Origin: Sulfitobacter mediterraneus
Lineage (GTDB): Bacteria; Pseudomonadota; Alphaproteobacteria; Rhodobacterales; Rhodobacteraceae
Reading direction: 5' to 3'
DNA: 64,000 nucleotides
Assembly: GCF_016801775.1 (NCBI RefSeq)
Contig: NZ_CP069004.1
Coordinates: forward strand, 2,666,001-2,730,000
Shown: positions 47,841 to 58,161 of the stretch, piece by piece
Layout: each line of letters opens with the position of its first letter
Position numbering within the stretch: the first letter of the stretch is position 1
Made by a program: the position numbers and the translations under genes
Notes under the pieces: generated by a model
The model's database searches: none
The model's input: only the letters and a program-made list of their open reading frames with translations
Told to the model about the DNA's origin: nothing

Positions 47841-48990
47841 AGATTGGCAAAACGGCGGCTTCGGGCTTTATATCCATTGGCCGTTTTGCGAGGCGAAATG
47901 CCCGTATTGTGATTTCAACAGCCATGTCAGCAGACAAATTGACCAACGCGCATGGCGTGATGGCTATTTGTCAGAACTCAAACGCACCGCTGCTGAAACC
48001 AAGGGCCGTGTGCTGAATGCAGTGTTCTTTGGTGGTGGGACGCCCAGCCTGATGGACCCTGATGTTGTTGCAGATGTCATCAGCGCCATCAAAACACACT
48101 GGCCCACAGCCAACGATCTTGAAATCACGCTCGAAGCAAACCCCAGTTCCGTCGAGGCGGGCCGCTTTGCCGCGTACCGTGACGCCGGGATCAGCCGCGT
48201 TTCCATGGGAATACAAGCTTTGAACGACGAAGATCTCCGCCGCCTTGGCCGTATTCATACTGCAAAAGAGGCCCTGACCGCCTTTGACGTCGCAAGGGCC
48301 GCGTTTGACCGTGTCAGTTTTGATCTGATTTACGGACGCCAGAACCAAACCGCTCAGGACTGGAAGGTAGAGCTAAGGCAGGCTCTAAACCTCGCGATAG
48401 ACCATATATCGCTCTACCAACTCACTATTGAAAAAGGTACAGCATTTGGCGATCGTTATGCCCGTGGTGGATTACGCGGATTGCCCGATGAAGATCTGGG
48501 CGCCGATCTCTATACCCTTACCCAAGACATTTGCGACGAAATGGGAATGCCGGGATACGAGGTGTCAAATCACGCCCGCGACGGGGCGCAATCGCGACAT
48601 AATCTGATCTACTGGCGATATGGTGATTACATCGGAATCGGGCCCGGCGCCCATGGTCGGGTTACGACTGAAAGCAACCGCTTTGCAACAGAATGCTTCA
48701 GCAATCCCAAAATCTGGCTTGAGAGATCAACTGATGGGACGACGGAGAAGCCACGGAGCCTGCTCGATTCATCCGAACAAGCCATCGAATTCTTGTTGAT
48801 GGGCTTGCGGTTAAAGGAAGGCATTGATCCAAAGCGGTTTGCACGAATTGCTGGTAAACCGGTTTCCAAAGAAAAGATCGATCATCTGAGCGAGATCGGG
48901 ATGATCAGCGCGACAGATGATCGGATTATCGTTACAAATCAGGGATTTAACGTTCTGAACGCGGTGATCGAGAACCTTATACCTGACTAA
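47833..48990 (+). CDS. hemW: Radical-SAM heme chaperone HemW
   Basis: A 385-residue radical SAM protein. The CxxxCxxC cluster motif is Cys19, Cys23, Cys26 (CEAKCPYC), and GGGTPSLM near 67 and the TIEKGT region follow. HemW binds heme; earlier annotations as oxygen-independent coproporphyrinogen oxidase are usually wrong, because the added cysteine of HemN is missing. The start must be TTG at 47833 (no ATG or GTG is in frame before the CxxxCxxC motif), overlapping rdgB by 8 bases. It converges with parB with a 4-base overlap. Confidence 0.95.
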   Translation: MTEDWQNGGFGLYIHWPFCEAKCPYCDFNSHVSRQIDQRAWRDGYLSELKRTAAETKGRVLNAVFFGGGTPSLMDPDVVADVISAIKTHWPTANDLEITLEANPSSVEAGRFAAYRDAGISRVSMGIQALNDEDLRRLGRIHTAKEALTAFDVARAAFDRVSFDLIYGRQNQTAQDWKVELRQALNLAIDHISLYQLTIEKGTAFGDRYARGGLRGLPDEDLGADLYTLTQDICDEMGMPGYEVSNHARDGAQSRHNLIYWRYGDYIGIGPGAHGRVTTESNRFATECFSNPKIWLERSTDGTTEKPRSLLDSSEQAIEFLLMGLRLKEGIDPKRFARIAGKPVSKEKIDHLSEIGMISATDDRIIVTNQGFNVLNAVIENLIPD

Positions 48991-49886
48991 GCACCGCTCA
49001 GCACGCGGCACAATTCATCCAACTCATCCAATGAATCGTAATGCACGGTCAGCTGGCCCTTTTCTTGGCCGGGCTTATGGTTCAACACAACTTTCATCTT
49101 AAGTGCTGCTGTAAGATCGCCCTCCAACGCTTTGGTATCGGCGTCTTTCTCAACTTTGGCCGCCGGCTTTTTGCCATCGACCACGTCGCTGGCATCCGCT
49201 TGCTGTTCTTTCTTAACCAACGCCTCAGCTGCGCGAACGGACAGCCCCTTTTTAACAATCTCTCGGGCCAATTTGACGGGGTCTTGCGCGGGCACCAAAG
49301 CACGCGCATGCCCTGCACTTAGATCGCCATCCCGGACCATATCCAGGACTGGCTGTGGCAGGTTCAAAAGGCGCAGCAGGTTCGCAATATGGCTCCGGCT
49401 TTTGCCAAGCGCTTCGGCCATTTTTTCCTGGGTATGGCCAAACTTGTCCATCAATTGCCGATAACCTGCGGCCTCTTCAATCGGGTTCAGGTCGGCGCGC
49501 TGAATATTCTCGATGATTGCCACCTCGAGAACTTCAACATCTGTAAATTCACGGATCACGACCGGCAGTTCATGTAGCTGCGCCAGCTGCGCTGCACGCC
49601 AGCGGCGCTCGCCAGCGACGATCTCATAGGATTCATCGCTCCGCTTGCGCACGATCAAAGGCTGAATGACGCCTTTCTCCTTGATCGACGCAGCCAGATC
49701 ATCCAGATCTTCCTTAGCAAAACGCTTCCGCGGCTGTTCCGGGTTCGGAGAAATCCGCTCAATCGGGATATATTGCTCCGTCGCGACGGGCCCTTGTGCG
49801 GTTGTCGCTTCAGTTTCCGCGACATCCGCCATCAATGCGGACAGCCCGCGACCTAATCCGCGTTTGCGATCTTGTTTATCTGCCAT
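48987..49886 (-). CDS. parB: Chromosome partitioning protein ParB
   Basis: ParB binds parS and spreads on DNA using CTP, forming the partition complex. The 299-residue protein has the GERRWRAAQ CTP-binding motif (92-100), a helix-turn-helix (EKMAEALGKSRSHIANLLRLL near 150-170) and a C-terminal dimer domain. The start region KRGLGRGLSALM is typical. It is last in the mnmE-mnmG-rsmG-parA-parB run. Two perfect parS sites lie 1.4 and 3.3 kb away (51257 and 53144). Confidence 0.97.
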   Translation of the reverse strand: MADKQDRKRGLGRGLSALMADVAETEATTAQGPVATEQYIPIERISPNPEQPRKRFAKEDLDDLAASIKEKGVIQPLIVRKRSDESYEIVAGERRWRAAQLAQLHELPVVIREFTDVEVLEVAIIENIQRADLNPIEEAAGYRQLMDKFGHTQEKMAEALGKSRSHIANLLRLLNLPQPVLDMVRDGDLSAGHARALVPAQDPVKLAREIVKKGLSVRAAEALVKKEQQADASDVVDGKKPAAKVEKDADTKALEGDLTAALKMKVVLNHKPGQEKGQLTVHYDSLDELDELCRVLSGA

Positions 49887-49896
49887 CTCTGCATCC

Positions 49897-50694
49897 TCAG
49901 ACGTTATTTTTGATCAATTCTCTAGCCAGATCCCGATAAGCCTCAGCCCCCTTGGACTGAGGATCATAGGCCAGCACTGGCATAGCATAGCTTGGCGCTT
50001 CGCTCACTCTTACATTTCGTGGGATCATTGTTTCAAACACCAGATCACCCAGATTACTGCGTGCATCCTGCTCCACCTGCTGTGAAAGGTTGTTCCTTTT
50101 GTCGTACATCGTCAGCACCACGCCCTCAATCCGAAGATCCTTATTGCCGGTTTGGCGCACTTCGCGGATGGTCATCATCAGTTGTGACAATCCCTCCAGC
50201 GCAAAAAACTCGCTTTGCAGCGGGACAAGGATCGAATGGGACGCGATCATTGCATTCACGGTCAGCAAGTTAAGCGACGGCGGGCAATCAATCAGGATAT
50301 AATCCAGCGCATAGCGATCCATCTGTGTTTGCCGCAATGCGTCATGCAGTAGAAAACTGCGCTTTTCATTTGCAATCAGCTCAATATCAGCGGAACTCAG
50401 ATCAACGGTCGCGGGAACGATCAACAAACCTTGATAATCCGTTTCCTGAACGACCTCATCCAGATCAATATCTTCCAAAAGCAGTTCATAAGTTGTGTAA
50501 ACCCTGTCCTCCAACTCGATTCCAAGTCCTGTGGAGGCATTGCCCTGCGGATCAAGATCAACAAGCAGCACCCGTTTGCCTTCCTCAACCAATGCAGCGG
50601 CGAGATTGATCGCGGTGGTCGTCTTGCCAACTCCGCCTTTTTGGTTGGCAACAGCGATAATCTTGGGGCCATCGGGGCGGGATAAGTCAGACAC
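49897..50694 (-). CDS. parA: Chromosome partitioning ATPase ParA
   Basis: ParA is the nucleoid-bound ATPase that moves ParB-parS complexes. The 265-residue protein has the deviant Walker A NQKGGVGKTTT at 17-27, with the signature lysine, and LVDLDPQGNAS near 46-56. The start is GTG at 50694 with AAGGA 9 bases upstream, and overlaps rsmG by 8 bases. The parA-parB spacing is 10 bases. Confidence 0.97.
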   Translation of the reverse strand: MSDLSRPDGPKIIAVANQKGGVGKTTTAINLAAALVEEGKRVLLVDLDPQGNASTGLGIELEDRVYTTYELLLEDIDLDEVVQETDYQGLLIVPATVDLSSADIELIANEKRSFLLHDALRQTQMDRYALDYILIDCPPSLNLLTVNAMIASHSILVPLQSEFFALEGLSQLMMTIREVRQTGNKDLRIEGVVLTMYDKRNNLSQQVEQDARSNLGDLVFETMIPRNVRVSEAPSYAMPVLAYDPQSKGAEAYRDLARELIKNNV

Positions 50695-51292
50695 GGGAAA
50701 TTTCCTTGATACTCAGGATCGCAGCATCAGCGCTGGTTCTACTTTTGACAGGTTCACAATCGTAGGACCACAGCTTCCGCGCCTCTTGATCCTCTTTTTT
50801 CCACTGTGCCCCCTTCGGGAACAGAGCCAAACCGCCCGGCGAAAGATGTCGTTCGGCAAAACCCAATAGAACAGACAGATCCGCCAGGGCACGGGCACTC
50901 AGGATGTCGGCGCCCAATGGATCAATTTCCTCAATTCGTTCGGATTGCACTGTGATCCCCAGATCCAGCTCTCTGGACGCTGTTCGCAGGAATGCGCATT
51001 TACGCTGATCGCTCTCAACCAACGTGAATTTAACTGGATCTGGACCTTCTGACGCTAGAATTGCCAAGACCACACCTGGAAAGCCACCTCCACTACCCAG
51101 ATCAACCCAGTGTCCTTGCTTTGGCGCCAAGTCATAGATTTGTACTGAATCCACAATGTGCCTGTCCCAGATATGAGGAACGCTTGCTTTGGATATCAGA
51201 TTGATTTTGACCGTCCACTTTTCAACGAGCGCAACAAATGCCTCAAGCTTGTCCAATGTTTCACGTGAAACATCCAAATCCATATCGCTCAT
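50687..51292 (-). CDS. rsmG: 16S rRNA (guanine527-N7)-methyltransferase
   Basis: RsmG (GidB) methylates G527 of 16S rRNA. The 201-residue product shows the SAM-binding loop [16 protein letters not shown] near 65-80. Residues 8-12 (VSRET) are encoded by the parS site 51257-51272. Its ATG overlaps the mnmG stop (ATGA). It lies between mnmG and parA, as in many alphaproteobacteria. Confidence 0.97.
51257..51272. repeat. parS site 1 (perfect consensus)
   Basis: TGTTTCACGTGAAACA, a perfect 16-bp palindrome equal to the bacterial parS consensus. It lies in the 5' part of rsmG, so it is also protein code (VSRET). ParB should bind here. Confidence 0.97.
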
Positions 51293-53160
51293 GCAGTTTT
51301 CTTCCCAACATCCCGACGCAACCGCGCCAGAAGAAGTGTCAATGCTGCAGGGGTCATGCCGTCAATACGCGCAGCTTGCGCCAGTGTTTCCGGTTGTGCC
51401 GACATCAGTTTCATCTTGAGCTCATTGGACAACCCGTCAAGTGCCTCATATTGAAACCCGACCGGTATTTTCTGCGCTTCATCCTTGCGCAGGGCATCAA
51501 TATCCTTTTGCTGCCGCGCGAGATAGTTGGAATAGAGCGCGTCACGCTCAATCTGTTCTGAGATTTCAGAGGAGACGCCTTCAAGCTCCGGAACCAATGG
51601 CAGAATATCTTCAAACGTCATGTCAGGAAAAGAAAGCAACTGAAACGCACTTCGCCTGTTGCCATCCTGGCTGATCGAAATCCCGGCCTGAATGGCTTCT
51701 TTTGGTGTGAAAGTGGCAGAGGAAAGGATTTCCTTTACCCGCAACAGCTCATTCAGTTTGGACTGAAAAGCAGATTTTCGTTGGTCGGAAACGCAACCGA
51801 GCTGCATCGCGATTGGCGTCAAGCGCTGGTCGGCGTTGTCCGCGCGTAAGGAGAGCCGGAATTCGGCCCGTGAGGTGAACATCCGATAGGGTTCGCTGAC
51901 CCCACGCGTTGTCAGGTCGTCAATCATCACGCCGATATAGCTGTCTGCACGGCTAAAGGTGATCTGATCTTTGCCCTGTGAAGAGAGCGCTGCGTTCAAT
52001 CCCGCGACCAAGCCTTGTGCGGCGGCTTCTTCATATCCGGTGGTGCCATTTATCTGCCCCGCCAGATACAGGCCCGGTACTTTTCGAACCTCCAGTGTCG
52101 CCTTCAGCGCGCGTGGATCAATGTAGTCATACTCAATCGCATATCCCGGTTGAAGAATGACGGCATTCTCAAGACCCTTCATCGAACGCACGTATTCTAG
52201 CTGCACTTCTTCGGGCAAAGACGTCGAAATGCCATTCGGATAGACGGTGTAATCATCTGCGCCTTCCGGCTCCAGGAAAACTTGATGGGAATCCTTATCG
52301 GCAAATCGGACCACCTTATCCTCGATCGAGGGGCAATAGCGGGGGCCAACCCCATCAATATGTCCGCCATACATCGCGGATCGCTCGAGATTGGTGCGAA
52401 TGATGTCATGGGTCTTTTCGTTGGTGTGCGTAATACCACAAGAGATTTGCGGTGCTGATGTTTGCTTGGACAAAAAGGAAAACAGGACCGGCTCTTCGTC
52501 ACCGGGCTGTTCATCCAAGACATCCCAATTGATCGTGCGGCCGTCCAACCTTGGTGGTGTCCCGGTTTTGAGCCGTCCCATTGGTAGGTCAAACCCATCA
52601 ATCGTTTCAGCCAATTTTTCGGACGCCTTGTCACCCATTCGGCCGCCAGACCGCGAAACCTCCCCGATATGAATGACACCGCGCAAAAACGTGCCAGTGG
52701 TCAAGATCACTGCATCCGCTGTGATCTGCTCACCGTCAGCAAGGACAATCCCGCAAACTCTGCCATTCTCAACAATCAGATCGACAACCTCACCAATCAC
52801 GATGGTCAGGTTATCTTGCTTCTGGGTCTCCAAGAGCATCTGTTCGCGATAGATTTTGCGATCGGACTGCGCCCGTGGGCCTTGAACCGCCGGACCTTTG
52901 CGTCGGTTCAACAACCGGAATTGGATTCCGGCCTTATCTGCGACGCGTCCCATAACGCCGTCCATCGCATCAATCTCGCGCACAAGATGGCCTTTTCCAA
53001 GGCCACCAATTGCCGGATTGCATGACATAACGCCGATCCCCGCCTCGGTCATCGTTACAAGGGCGGTGTCTGCAGACATCCGTGCCGCAGCATGTGCAGC
53101 CTCCGCCCCAGCGTGACCGCCGCCAATCACAACAACTTCAAAATGTTTCACGTGAAACAC
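51289..53160 (-). CDS. mnmG: tRNA uridine 5-carboxymethylaminomethyl modification enzyme MnmG
   Basis: MnmG (GidA) works with MnmE on the wobble uridine of some tRNAs. The 623-residue FAD protein shows [10 protein letters not shown] (12-21) and [17 protein letters not shown] near 44-60. The start is a GTG at 53160, and the first codons (MFHVKH) are the parS site 53144-53159. It is 4 bases downstream of mnmE and shares ATGA with rsmG. Confidence 0.97.
53144..53159. repeat. parS site 2 (perfect consensus)
   Basis: TGTTTCACGTGAAACA again, identical to site 1, 1,887 bases away. It covers all but one base of the first codons of mnmG and encodes MFHVKH. Confidence 0.97.
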
Positions 53161-54482: not shown

Positions 54483-55754
54483 TCAGGTGTTCATCGAATC
54501 GAAGAAATCCGAATTGGTCTTGGTTTGTTTGAGTTTTCCAATCAGGAATTCAATCGCATCCGTCGTCCCCATCGGGTTGAGGATCCGGCGCAGAACAAAG
54601 GTTTTCTGCAGATCGATCTTATCAACCAACAGATCTTCTTTTCGTGTGCCGGATTTGAGGATGTCGATGGCCGGGAACACACGCTTGTCAGCGATCTTGC
54701 GATCGAGAACAATCTCGGAGTTGCCCGTGCCCTTGAACTCTTCAAAGATAACTTCGTCCATCCGGCTGCCTGTGTCGATCAGGGCCGTGGCGATGATGGT
54801 CAGCGAACCGCCCTCTTCGATGTTTCGTGCCGCACCGAAGAAACGCTTGGGGCGTTGCAGGGCGTTGGCATCCACACCACCTGTCAGAACTTTACCGGAG
54901 GAAGGAACAACGGTGTTGAACGCACGACCAAGTCGCGTGATGGAATCGAGCAAGATCACCACGTCGCGCTTGTGTTCAACCAGACGCTTAGCCTTTTCGA
55001 TGACCATGTCGGAAACCGCCACGTGACGCGTCGCCGGTTCGTCAAAGGTAGAGGACACAACCTCCCCTTTCACGGACCGTTGCATATCGGTGACTTCTTC
55101 CGGCCGTTCGTCGATCAGCAGGACAATCAGATAACACTCAGGATGGTTCTTTTCGATCGAGTTGGCGATATTTTGCAGCAGAACCGTCTTACCGGTACGC
55201 GGCGGCGCGACGATCAAGGAACGCTGTCCTTTACCGATGGGCGACACCAGATCAATGATCCGCGCGGAGCGGTCTTTGACTGTCGGATCTTCAACTTCCA
55301 TCGTCAGACGCTCATCAGGGTAAAGCGGTGTGAGGTTTTCGAAAGCAACCTTGTGACGCGCCTTCTCAGGCTCTTCAAAGTTGATCTTTGTGACCTCGGT
55401 CAGGGCGAAGTACCGTTCACTGTCGTCAGGAGCCTTGATCAGCCCCTCAATGGTGTCTCCGGTCCGCAGGGACCACTGACGGATCATCTCGGGCGAGACA
55501 TAGATATCATCCGGGCCCGGAAGATAGTTCGCCTCCGGAGAGCGCAGAAAGCCAAATCCATCCTGCAAAACCTCCAAAACGCCGTCACCGGAAATTTCCC
55601 AACCCTCATCCGCGCGTTCGCGCAGGATTTGGAACATCATTTCGCCCTTGCGCATCGTGGAGGCGTTTTCGATCTCAAGATCTTCGGCCATCGCCAAAAG
55701 GTTCTTGGGCGTTTGCGCCTTTAGGTCAGCGAGGTTCAGCGTATCGGTTGTCAT
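54483..55754 (-). CDS. rho: Transcription termination factor Rho
   Basis: Rho is the hexameric RNA helicase that ends many transcripts. The 423-residue product contains the RNA-binding cold-shock-like domain ([20 protein letters not shown]), Walker A APPRTGKT near 180, and [11 protein letters not shown]. Normal length for the family. It lies in the group transcribed away from the AT-rich region at 56.4 kb. Confidence 0.97.
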
Positions 55755-55877
55755 GAATAATCCTGTGCAGCCCAGGCAAAAGCGGGGCTGTGCGTCATTG
55801 GAATGTAAATGCTAGGTCGCCCTCCCGGACGGGAAGGTGCGCTTGGTATAAGCAGAGGCCAAGAGACTGTCAATATT

Positions 55878-56327
55878 TCAGAATTTAACCACCACAGAGA
55901 TCACGATCACGATCAGCAGAACAGTTGGCACTTCGTTCATCATGCGGAATTGCCGACCTGTGATGTGGTTCTCGCCTCGTTGAAATGCTTTCATGCGGAT
56001 AACGAGCCAAGTGTGAAACAACGTCATCAGAATAACGCAGATTGCTTTGCTATAGGGCCAGACCGCAGACCAATCGACGATCCCTGGTGTGAAGGCCAAA
56101 AGCAGGCCAAAGGTCCAGGTGGCATGCATGGCGGGCCGCATGATCACATTGGCCAGTTTGAATTCCATCATTGCAAAGAGATCATGCTTTTCTCCGCTTA
56201 GCCCAGCCTGTTCGGTATGATGCACAAACAATCGCGGCAGATAGAACAGCGCGGCCATCCAAGCGATGACCGAGATGATATGAAAGGATTTCGTCCAAGG
56301 GTAAGCAAGGGCAAGCAGATCAGACAT
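55878..56327 (-). CDS. hemJ: Protoporphyrinogen oxidase HemJ
   Basis: A 149-residue membrane protein with four hydrophobic segments. HIISVIAWMAALFYLPRLFVHH (about 16-37) and the conserved RPAMHATWTFGL near 83-94 match the UPF0093/HemJ family, which oxidises protoporphyrinogen IX in bacteria without HemY/HemG. The conserved His and Lys residues expected for the heme site are present in this segment. GGAGTGGGAT precedes the ATG. hemH (18 kb) acts next in the pathway. Confidence 0.93.
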   Translation of the reverse strand: MSDLLALAYPWTKSFHIISVIAWMAALFYLPRLFVHHTEQAGLSGEKHDLFAMMEFKLANVIMRPAMHATWTFGLLLAFTPGIVDWSAVWPYSKAICVILMTLFHTWLVIRMKAFQRGENHITGRQFRMMNEVPTVLLIVIVISVVVKF

Positions 56328-56352
56328 ATCCCACTCCGTTCTTTCGGCCCTT

Positions 56353-56370
56353 CTTATAATAATAAGAAAG
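56353..56370. repeat. AT-rich inverted repeat upstream of hemJ
   Basis: TTCTTAT (56353-56359) and ATAAGAA (56364-56370) form a perfect 7-bp inverted repeat with an AATA spacer. It sits 26 bases before the hemJ start. It could be a protein-binding site or part of the origin; I do not know which. Confidence 0.5.
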
Positions 56371-56481
56371 ATAAGAAAGGTGATGTTGTTTGTAGGGAGC
56401 AGAAAATCTGTGGATTAAAGAATTACTCAAGGTTTATCCCGAACTGAAGAACTCTGAACCTGTTCTGTGCATATAAATTGA

Positions 56482-56496
56482 TTAAAGGAAATTTAA
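56482..56496. promoter_or_regulatory. TTAA-N7-TTAA motif (CtrA-like)
   Basis: TTAA (56482-56485), seven bases, TTAA (56493-56496) is an exact match to the CtrA recognition pattern of alphaproteobacteria. It is inside the A/T tract, where TTAA is common by chance, so weight is limited. Confidence 0.4.
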
Positions 56497-56723
56497 TTAA
56501 ATTAAATCAAATGGTTAAGACATAAAATGGGTAAAAATATCGTGGATAACTCAAGGGATAAACTGCGCCATAACCGATTCCTCCCACGTCGAGAGTTTTC
56601 CTTATCCTATTGGGTGGGAATCGCGAACAAACCAGCGGTTTTGGCAAAAACCGTCAAACCTGCCCTCAGCTTTTGAATTCTGCATCAGAAGTCCTTAAGA
56701 AATGCCTAACGTCACACACAAGG

Positions 56724-56732
56724 TTATCCACA
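56724..56732 (+). promoter_or_regulatory. Perfect DnaA box next to the maf start
   Basis: TTATCCACA exactly matches the strong DnaA box. Its last base is the A of the maf ATG (56732), so it lies in the ribosome-binding region of that gene. Confidence 0.85.
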
Positions 56733-57331
56733 TGCCACAGCCGTTCATCCTGGCCTCCGGCTCTGTAATCCGCCACAAGCTGCTGGATCAGGCTGGTGTG
56801 ATGCATCAGATCACCAAACCGCGTGTTGATGAAGAGATGATCAAAGCCGCGCTTTTGGCAGAGGAGGCAACGCCTCGCGATATTGCCGATGCCCTGGCCG
56901 AGATGAAAGCCACAAAGATCAGCGAAAAACACCCCGGTGCCTTGGTTTTGGGTTGTGATCAGGTGCTGGACCATCGCGGCACTTTGTTGTCCAAGCCCGA
57001 AACTCCCCAGGACGCCATCACCCAACTTCAATCATTGCGAGGGGATCGGCACAGTTTGCTGTCGGCTGCCGTCCTTTGCGAAGATGGCAAACCGATCTGG
57101 CGGCATGTCGGACAAGTACGTTTGCGGATGCGCGAAATCAGTGATGCCTATCTGCAAGACTATGTTGAACGCAACTGGGAGAGTATTCGCCACGCGGTTG
57201 GTTGCTATAAACTCGAAGAAGAAGGTGTACGTCTGTTTTCCAACATACAGGGGGATTACTTTCATGTCCTTGGTATGCCACTTTTGGAACTGCTCAATTA
57301 CCTGACCCTGCGCGGAGATCTTCCCACATGA
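56732..57331 (+). CDS. Maf-family nucleotide pyrophosphatase
   Basis: A 199-residue protein of the Maf/YhdE family, which hydrolyses nucleoside triphosphates, often modified ones. LASGS near 7-11, LGCDQVLD and the C-terminal IQGDYFHVLGMPL are family marks. I chose the ATG at 56732 (MPQPFILASGS) over 56702 because it aligns with the family and has AAGG upstream. It shares ATGA with aroE. First gene on the right side of the candidate origin. Confidence 0.93.
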   Translation: MPQPFILASGSVIRHKLLDQAGVMHQITKPRVDEEMIKAALLAEEATPRDIADALAEMKATKISEKHPGALVLGCDQVLDHRGTLLSKPETPQDAITQLQSLRGDRHSLLSAAVLCEDGKPIWRHVGQVRLRMREISDAYLQDYVERNWESIRHAVGCYKLEEEGVRLFSNIQGDYFHVLGMPLLELLNYLTLRGDLPT

Positions 57332-58161
57332 CTTTGGCAAAAATACCCTTGGCCGGCGTGATTGGATCTCCGATCGCGCATTCCAAATCGCCGCAGGTTC
57401 ATGGGCATTGGCTCAAGACCTATGGCATTCAGGGGCATTATATTCCGATGGATGTCGCCGCCGCTGATCTTGAACAGGTGATCCGAAGCTTGCCTCGCAT
57501 GGGATTTGTCGGGGTGAACGTGACAATCCCCCACAAGGAAGCGGTGATGCAGATTGCGGACCTTGTGACGGACCGCGCCATCCTTATCGGTGCATCAAAC
57601 ACGCTGATATTCCGCAAAGATGGCAAAATTCATGCAGACAATACAGATGGTTATGGGTTTCTCGAAAACCTGAAGACGGGCGCTCCAAACTGGCAACCGA
57701 AGTCAGGGCCTGCCGCGATCCTGGGTGCTGGCGGCGCGGCGCGGGCGGTGATTGCGTCACTTTTGGATGCGGGTGTGCCAGAAATTTACATTTCCAACCG
57801 CACGCGCGTCCGGGCTGAAAAACTGGTGTCGGATTTTGGCAATCGTCTGCGCGTGTTTGACTGGGTTCAGGCGGGCAACATGTTCGACGATGCCGCGCTG
57901 GTGGTGAACACCACATCACTTGGTATGGTCGGCAAAGGTGAATTGCGTGTCCCGCTGGATGGCCTGACAAAAAACACCGTGGTCACTGATCTGGTCTATG
58001 CGCCGCTGAAAACCAACCTTCTGGCAACCGCAGAAGAGATGGGGTGCACCACTGTCGATGGCTTGGGCATGTTGTTGCATCAAGCGGTGCCGGGCTTTGA
58101 ACGTTGGTTTGGCAAACGACCCGAAGTGGACCGCGCCACCCGTGCGGCGGCGTTGCGCTAA
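57328..58161 (+). CDS. aroE: Shikimate dehydrogenase
   Basis: AroE reduces 3-dehydroshikimate with NADPH in aromatic amino acid synthesis. The 277-residue product has the catalytic Lys70 in NVTIPHK, Asp in ADNTDGYGF and the nucleotide loop GAGGAARAV. It overlaps maf by 4 bases and coaE by 1 (TAATG). Confidence 0.97.
   Translation: MTLAKIPLAGVIGSPIAHSKSPQVHGHWLKTYGIQGHYIPMDVAAADLEQVIRSLPRMGFVGVNVTIPHKEAVMQIADLVTDRAILIGASNTLIFRKDGKIHADNTDGYGFLENLKTGAPNWQPKSGPAAILGAGGAARAVIASLLDAGVPEIYISNRTRVRAEKLVSDFGNRLRVFDWVQAGNMFDDAALVVNTTSLGMVGKGELRVPLDGLTKNTVVTDLVYAPLKTNLLATAEEMGCTTVDGLGMLLHQAVPGFERWFGKRPEVDRATRAAALR

Follow-up and report, generated by a model that had tools for sequence, protein, structure and literature searches.

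Where on its chromosome does Sulfitobacter mediterraneus begin replication, and which DNA would the initiator DnaA open there? An initial annotation of a 64,000-nt stretch of contig C1 (C1:2666001-2730000; hereafter the window, with position 1 as its first letter) proposed a probable chromosomal origin in a gene-free gap beside hemJ. The gap indeed spans 404 bases (56328-56731) between two open reading frames, hemJ (55878-56327, minus strand, start at 56327) and maf (56732-57331, plus strand, start at 56732). This maf start is the one common to relatives, and an alternative in-frame ATG lies upstream at 56702. The name hemJ was taken from the initial annotation and fits the way the gene is arranged with rho, maf and aroE in relatives; maf and the genes after it, which we take to be aroE, coaE and dnaQ, were named largely from the same source. 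All genes from parB to hemJ lie on the minus strand and those from maf to dnaQ on the plus strand, such that transcription diverges from the gap as had been described. The open frames named parB (48987-49886) and parA (49897-50694) in the annotation, both on the minus strand, and two perfect parS matches (TGTTTCACGTGAAACA) at 51257-51272 and 53144-53159, 5.1 kb and 3.2 kb from the gap, were likewise found where the annotation had placed them, within 8 kb. In alphaproteobacteria parAB usually lie near the origin (PMC8116508), and parAB proximity was a criterion when Ori-Finder called 101 Rhodobacteraceae oriCs (PMC6699656).

To locate the gap relative to the chromosome arms, GC skew was sampled in 39 stretches of 20 kb from the 3,797,566-bp contig and fitted with two switches, the window being excluded. 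The fit placed a minus-to-plus switch at 2.62-2.75 Mb, an interval that spans the gap at 2.722 Mb, and a plus-to-minus one at 0.82-0.91 Mb; the two are about half a chromosome apart, as expected of origin and terminus. Mean skew was +0.022 in the 20 stretches of the right arm versus -0.049 in the other 19, and within the window it was -0.074 to the left and +0.009 to the right of position 56530. Two details count against an origin in the gap: skew of the right arm is weak and turns negative (-0.001 to -0.025) in 5 of the 20 stretches, and the cumulative minimum within the window, at 55656, lies 0.7 kb to the left of the gap. The displaced minimum would suit an origin elsewhere, the gap then being merely AT-rich DNA within a conserved gene cluster. 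We consider this highly improbable given that both the skew fit and a cluster of DnaA boxes fall at the gap, and that the gap is orthologous to the one between hemE and COG1806 in which the Caulobacter origin was mapped (PMC1914354). An origin at dnaA itself was rejected, as that gene lies 98 kb away (C1:2820010-2821368) and the block model described below has no match there.

The annotation had counted one perfect and several near-perfect DnaA boxes in the gap, and our scan agreed. The perfect box (TTATCCACA; 56724-56732, plus strand) extends onto the first base of maf, and two minus-strand boxes carry one mismatch each: TAATCCACA at 56409-56417, found at this position in all 21 congeneric gaps, and TTATCCACG at 56541-56549. 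Allowing two mismatches raised the total from three to five. Dinucleotide shuffles of the gap held 0.15 boxes (at most one mismatch) on average and none of 500 held three, placing the cluster beyond chance. When 405-nt windows were scanned in steps of 50 over 844 kb (the 39 sampled stretches and the window, about one fifth of the genome), at least three such boxes occurred only in windows of this gap, and no other gap with more boxes was found in that sample. Gaps from relatives averaged 3.18 boxes versus 0.13 in shuffles (n = 99, near-identical genomes included), a count in which one base, the maf start, was added to the observed gaps and not to the shuffled ones. These 99 gaps comprise 21 congeneric and 78 named ones and were not deduplicated; L044 and L073, for example, are the same or near-identical, as are L058 and L077. 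The gap also contains an AT-rich region, from which unwinding is predicted: its GC content is 0.388 versus 0.564 for the window, only 1 of 12,719 405-nt windows being lower, and each of the 78 gaps that could be measured exceeds its own locus in AT content. Taken with the open frames, the skew and the relatives, boxes and composition indicate that 56328-56731 is very probably the bidirectional chromosomal origin, oriC, and that as an origin it is an ordinary one.

The annotation had further held that the position between hemJ and maf differs from the hemE-side origin of Caulobacter. To evaluate this claim, gene order was compared within the genus, the family and the class. The genus was represented by 24 genomes including our own, of which 22 were used; G004 had no Maf match and G017 a distant match only. 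The order rho, hemJ, gap, maf, aroE occurred in 21 of the 22 loci of the genus that have a Maf orthologue (the remaining one is cut off) and in 73 of 80 named loci; five of the 80 had rho, the gap and maf without hemJ, and two were cut off. Gap length was 370-455 nt in 73 loci, 67 of these falling within 390-430 nt. No hemE was detected left of maf in any of the 80 named loci (up to 4 kb searched, two loci cut off), the query being an open frame of 459 aa extended at its front end; the 341-aa match served as query for the other families. In loci from ten other alphaproteobacterial families, hemE, hemH and/or COG1806 lay left of maf in nine, with hemE itself there in seven (tblastn); hemH and COG1806 at these loci are presumptive names, given from translations. 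The tenth locus, L159, has rho directly before maf. In the S. mediterraneus genome the only hemE (PF01208) match lies on contig C3, away from the gap, and PF03618 (COG1806) has no match. Since the hemE match is confined to C3 and none was obtained for PF03618, we read the gap as the Caulobacter site with genes lost. Judged by gene order, the hemJ-maf position is the usual arrangement of the family and corresponds to the ancestral Caulobacter site minus hemE, hemH and COG1806; the claim of a new origin position was thus overturned by the class comparison.

In its likeness to the Caulobacter crescentus origin, Cori, the gap occupies the orthologous position, from the rho-hemJ side to the maf-aroE-coaE-dnaQ side, and has DnaA boxes and an AT-rich region; it also carries CtrA-like and IHF-like matches, of kinds present in a minority of the 99 gaps though above shuffles. 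It differs in that hemE and COG1806 do not flank it, hemE, hemH and COG1806 being missing and hemJ and maf being direct neighbours, and in that five CtrA-like sites are reported in Cori (PMC1914354) versus one exact site here. Between rho and maf, hemJ is missing from five Rhodobacteraceae loci (L095, L096, L113, L121 and L147); in these the gap still adjoins maf, so the origin can stay in place when a neighbouring gene disappears.

Two further observations were made on these loci and on the hemE contig. Records titled Nocardioides marinus (L098) and Verrucomicrobia bacterium (L145) have typical Rhodobacteraceae origin neighbourhoods, and the two assemblies are probably misnamed or contaminated. 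Contig C3 (120,730 bp) carries the hemE match at C3:89971-90993 (L162:9971-10993), a RepC (PF03428) match and, beside hemE, an open frame on the minus strand (L162:8926-10020) that we take from its translation to be hemC-like. Haem genes thus apparently reside on a repABC-type replicon. In seven of eight congeners examined, hemE and maf share one contig.

We then asked which part of the gap is conserved. Mean pairwise identity within the genus was 0.65-0.78 over 56348-56427 versus 0.31-0.46 over 56428-56587. Conservation is concentrated in a core block of about 70 nt (56348-56419, plus strand) that contains, in order, an A-rich tract (56354-56378), a trinucleotide repeat (56379-56397), a G-rich spacer and the DnaA box at 56409-56417. 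The A-rich tract, whose bin at 56357 averages 0.87 A+T across 93 loci, is part of a probable DNA-unwinding element. A block profile seeded on GTARG and TGTGGAT (39 seeds) matched 93 of the 99 gaps at E<=1e-3, the exceptions being L108, L127, L128, L133, L137 and L147, and had no match elsewhere in the 844-kb sample of our genome at E<=10. Because of this seeding, the seed letters are partly built into block counts; the T-centred part of the repeat was absent from the seed. A sequence-only model of 74 positions, R1, was made from 62 of 69 blocks picked among the 93, the rows for L146, L131, L138, L118, L101, L106 and L144 being omitted, mostly for other spacing. R1 matches 56349-56419 (E 1.7e-14), and nowhere else in the genome did it match at E<=10 among the 150 of 376 first-look candidates that were scored.

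Across the family R1 matched 209 of 295 genomes, nearly one per genus and drafts included, with a single match in each except G210, which had two. That it missed 86 of the 295 at E<=0.01 under strict filters counts against it. Class-wide, 79 of 190 genomes had matches at E<=0.1, many of them weak and often several per genome. Of 27 out-of-family loci fetched, 16 proved to lie in the orthologous gap and 11 did not; the 16 comprised 11 hemE-COG1806, three rho-maf, one rho-dnaQ and one hemE-maf gap. Since R1 was built only from Rhodobacteraceae, these 16 loci are an independent sign of both the element and the site. As far as the Ori-Finder study is drawn on here, its oriCs are predictions of the same kind as ours, and the conserved block and repeat are not described in it (PMC6699656). 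The reading of the gap as chromosomal origin is therefore supported by the skew switch, the box cluster, the gene order and the conservation of the block.

With its beginning 20 nt from the start codon of hemJ and its place beside hemE in 12 out-of-family loci, the block might be a regulatory leader or promoter of hemJ (of hemE elsewhere) with no part in initiation. Such a role is very unlikely in view of the retention of the block in four of the five named loci without hemJ (L095, L096, L113 and L121; not L147) and of its single match in our genome, which falls at the skew switch. A known leader RNA was ruled out, as no Rfam family matched within 55700-57400.

How might DnaA use this block? 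In the basal unwinding system (BUS), boxes are followed by a GC-rich spacer and DnaA-trios; the spacer to the first trio peaks at 10-13 nt with a limit of 16, and tandem boxes are the most frequent arrangement (PMC8287927). The letters of the Bacillus BUS are given in PMC10316083. The core block resembles that of B. subtilis in the order and orientation of A/T-rich tract, repeat, G/C-rich spacer and box, in a spacer within the published range and in a box-proximal TAG. On the plus strand, where we place the functional repeat, the trios GTG, ATG and TTG (G at 56382, 56385 and 56388) are followed by a canonical TAG at 56393-56395 and a G-rich step, GGG. This TAG is one base out of register with the T-centred trios, and the extra base is absent in 36 of 62 blocks. 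A possible degenerate second box occupies 56400-56408 (minus strand), the register of the proximal box in Celeribacter L146. In L146 a good box adjoins the G-rich step and a second box comes after it, the tandem arrangement given as commonest in PMC8287927; in our genome the outer box is good and the inner register degenerate.

The T-centred trios were well conserved. Across the 62 family blocks that were aligned, T was central in 60 of the trios ending at 56382 and in 58 of those ending at 56385, and all 62 blocks had the G of both; TGNTG persisted in 56 of 62 blocks within the family and in 15 of 16 outside it. The longest G-phased run averaged 3.67 in the family versus 2.62 in shuffles (n = 93) and 4.75 versus 2.50 out of family (n = 16); runs of at least four phased G occurred in 42 of the 93 blocks of the family (mean 9.9 and maximum 17 in shuffles) and in 11 of the 16 from outside it (mean 2.1 and maximum 5 in shuffles). 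In the blocks with at least four phased G, which alone were used for these counts, the trio centre was T in 112 of 152 family and 33 of 51 out-of-family trios, while TAG made up 16 of the 152 and 5 of the 51. In our searches no T-centred repeat in alphaproteobacterial origins was reported in the titles and abstract openings among the matches listed, and one may be in print.

An ordinary BUS offers a simpler account, in which DnaA reads the conserved proximal TAG and the T-centred repeats are merely easily melted DNA. Box, G-rich spacer and repeat do stand in the published order, the TAG at 56393-56395 hardly varies (T 62, A 56 and G 62 of 62 blocks), and the 13 nt between it and the box fall within the published peak and the 16-nt limit (PMC8287927). 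However, the published DnaA-trio rule, applied as a box with at least three central-A trios (3'-NAN-5') within 16 nt, held in only 27 of 93 family blocks, compared with 56.2 after the upstream part was shuffled, and in 3 of 16 out-of-family blocks, compared with 1.4. The rule is therefore not enriched in the family; the value of 56.2 is an unfair null for depletion, because shuffling brings the A-rich tract next to the box. Our own block satisfies the rule only through a match in the spacer, GAGCAGAAA, and otherwise has fewer than three central-A trios. On these counts a fully canonical DnaA-trio array was set aside. The near-universal retention of TGNTG, together with the lack of TAG in the stretch examined in 6 of 16 out-of-family blocks, also argues against DnaA reading the TAG alone, and we regard the ordinary BUS as unlikely.

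Since the further trios here are T-centred, (A/T)TG, and those of Bacillus A-centred, the residues of DnaA that face the repeat were compared. In the solved DnaA chains, whose organisms we take to be B. subtilis, T. maritima and A. aeolicus, alignment places Asn at the 187 position in the first two and Gln in the third. The single PF00308 match in our genome, DnaA, has Tyr at the position of B. subtilis Asn187. We examined 50 of the 56 class genomes with a match, consisting of the 30 best-scoring sequences, including our own, and 20 others. Among the 30, the 187 position was Tyr in 29 and Phe in one, Lys replaced Arg202 in all 30, and Glu228 was kept in all 30; among the 20, there were 14 Tyr, two Phe and one each of Asn (G346), Leu (G333), Gln (G363) and Arg (G027), with Lys at 202 in 18 and Glu228 in 20. 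Altogether, an aromatic residue (Tyr or Phe) stood at the 187 position in 46 of 50 alphaproteobacterial DnaAs. In B. subtilis the central adenine contacts Asn187, T or G at that base slows strand separation while C is tolerated, and Arg202 and Glu228 contact guanine (PMC10721633). Compared with the B. subtilis protein, DnaA here keeps Glu183 and Glu228 and has Tyr for Asn187 and Lys for Arg202.

These substitutions suggest, tentatively, that in alphaproteobacteria the unwinding repeat is mainly T-centred, 3'-GT(A/T)-5', lying in Rhodobacteraceae behind one 3'-GAT-5' next to the boxes, and that DnaA co-changed with it through an aromatic residue for Asn187 and Lys for Arg202 with Glu228 kept. 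We hold this reading to be somewhat less probable than even, and our confidence was lowered slightly because a recount showed that the proximal TAG hardly varies in the family. Coupled change of the origin repeat and the pocket of DnaA is a plausible fit, and shared ancestry alone could look identical. If co-change did occur, the base-capture code of the class would differ from that of Bacillus and a central-A search rule would largely miss the repeat.

Other initiators also read single-strand motifs beside boxes. T. maritima needs three TAG repeats, the authors of that study suggest a general preference of DnaA proteins for TAG repeats, and E. coli DnaA binds TTGT (single-strand motifs TTGT/TTATT; PMC10316083). 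The T. maritima eTrio and the E. coli motifs thus resemble the present repeat, which itself contains TTGT. They differ in that T. maritima requires TAG repeats and has a DnaA with Asn where Tyr is found here, and in that the E. coli motifs are not presented as a trinucleotide array in the sections of PMC10316083 drawn on here.

The likeness to E. coli bears on the A/T tract that the annotation had listed. Its AT-richness was upheld, the lowest-GC 40-mer starting at 56471 (56471-56510) within a second AT-rich tract (56471-56520) that is also AT-rich on average in relatives (the bin at 56497 averages 0.76 A+T across 93 loci). As a conserved core, however, the mid-gap tract was rejected, as relatives share its composition and not its sequence; the conserved element lies beside hemJ instead. 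In an E. coli-type loop-back, 56471-56520 would melt, an IHF-like protein would bend the DNA, and box-bound DnaA would capture the T-rich strand (TTGT/TTATT). The composition of the tract, an IHF-like match to WATCAAN4TTR at 56505-56517 (plus strand) and the TTGT of the plus-strand repeat, a motif bound by E. coli DnaA (PMC10316083), are consistent with such a mechanism. Genus identity, however, is only 0.31-0.38 over 56448-56507, far below that of the core block, and IHF-like sites, although above the 1.2% of shuffles, occur in just 7 of 99 gaps, which makes loop-back opening improbable.

Further sites were examined across the gap. An exact CtrA-like site (TTAA-N7-TTAA) lies at 56482-56496 (plus strand), a position not common to relatives, and it was dismissed as a conserved site. 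What relatives share is a position 33-41 nt left of maf, represented here by a one-mismatch match at 56695-56709 (plus strand), 37 nt from the gene. There, exact sites occurred in 13 of 99 gaps and sites with at most one mismatch in 26, compared with means of 0.1 (maximum 2) and 1.1 (maximum 6) in 30 control windows of the same width elsewhere. Exact sites anywhere in the gap occurred in 18 of 99, above shuffles and a minority. The CtrA-like site near maf may serve in control of the origin or belong to the maf promoter. A tandem half-box, TTTTCCTTATCC, lies at 56596-56607 (plus strand); its pattern recurs in 51 of the 99 gaps, usually some 135 nt from maf, compared with a frequency of 0.002 in shuffles.

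From these features a working scheme for initiation can be proposed. The location of the gap, its box cluster, the skew switch and the conservation of block and gene order come directly from the computation; we infer the direction of the filament, the strand held by DnaA and the role of the repeat as the single strand contacted. DnaA would anchor on the minus-strand box at 56409-56417 and extend leftward as a filament that crosses the G-rich spacer to reach the repeat on the plus strand (56379-56397); the adjoining A-rich tract at 56354-56378 would open next to hemJ. The boxes at 56541 and 56724 and the tandem half-boxes would bind additional DnaA, and parS/ParAB, 3 to 7.4 kb away, would segregate the copies.

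An oriC at this locus was to be expected; what the analysis adds is a probable core element, together with a profile able to recover it from 209 of 295 Rhodobacteraceae genomes. Should the T-centred repeat prove linked to the change from Asn to Tyr, the reading of single-stranded origin DNA by DnaA would not follow one universal code, which bears on how one conserved protein opens such different bacterial origins.
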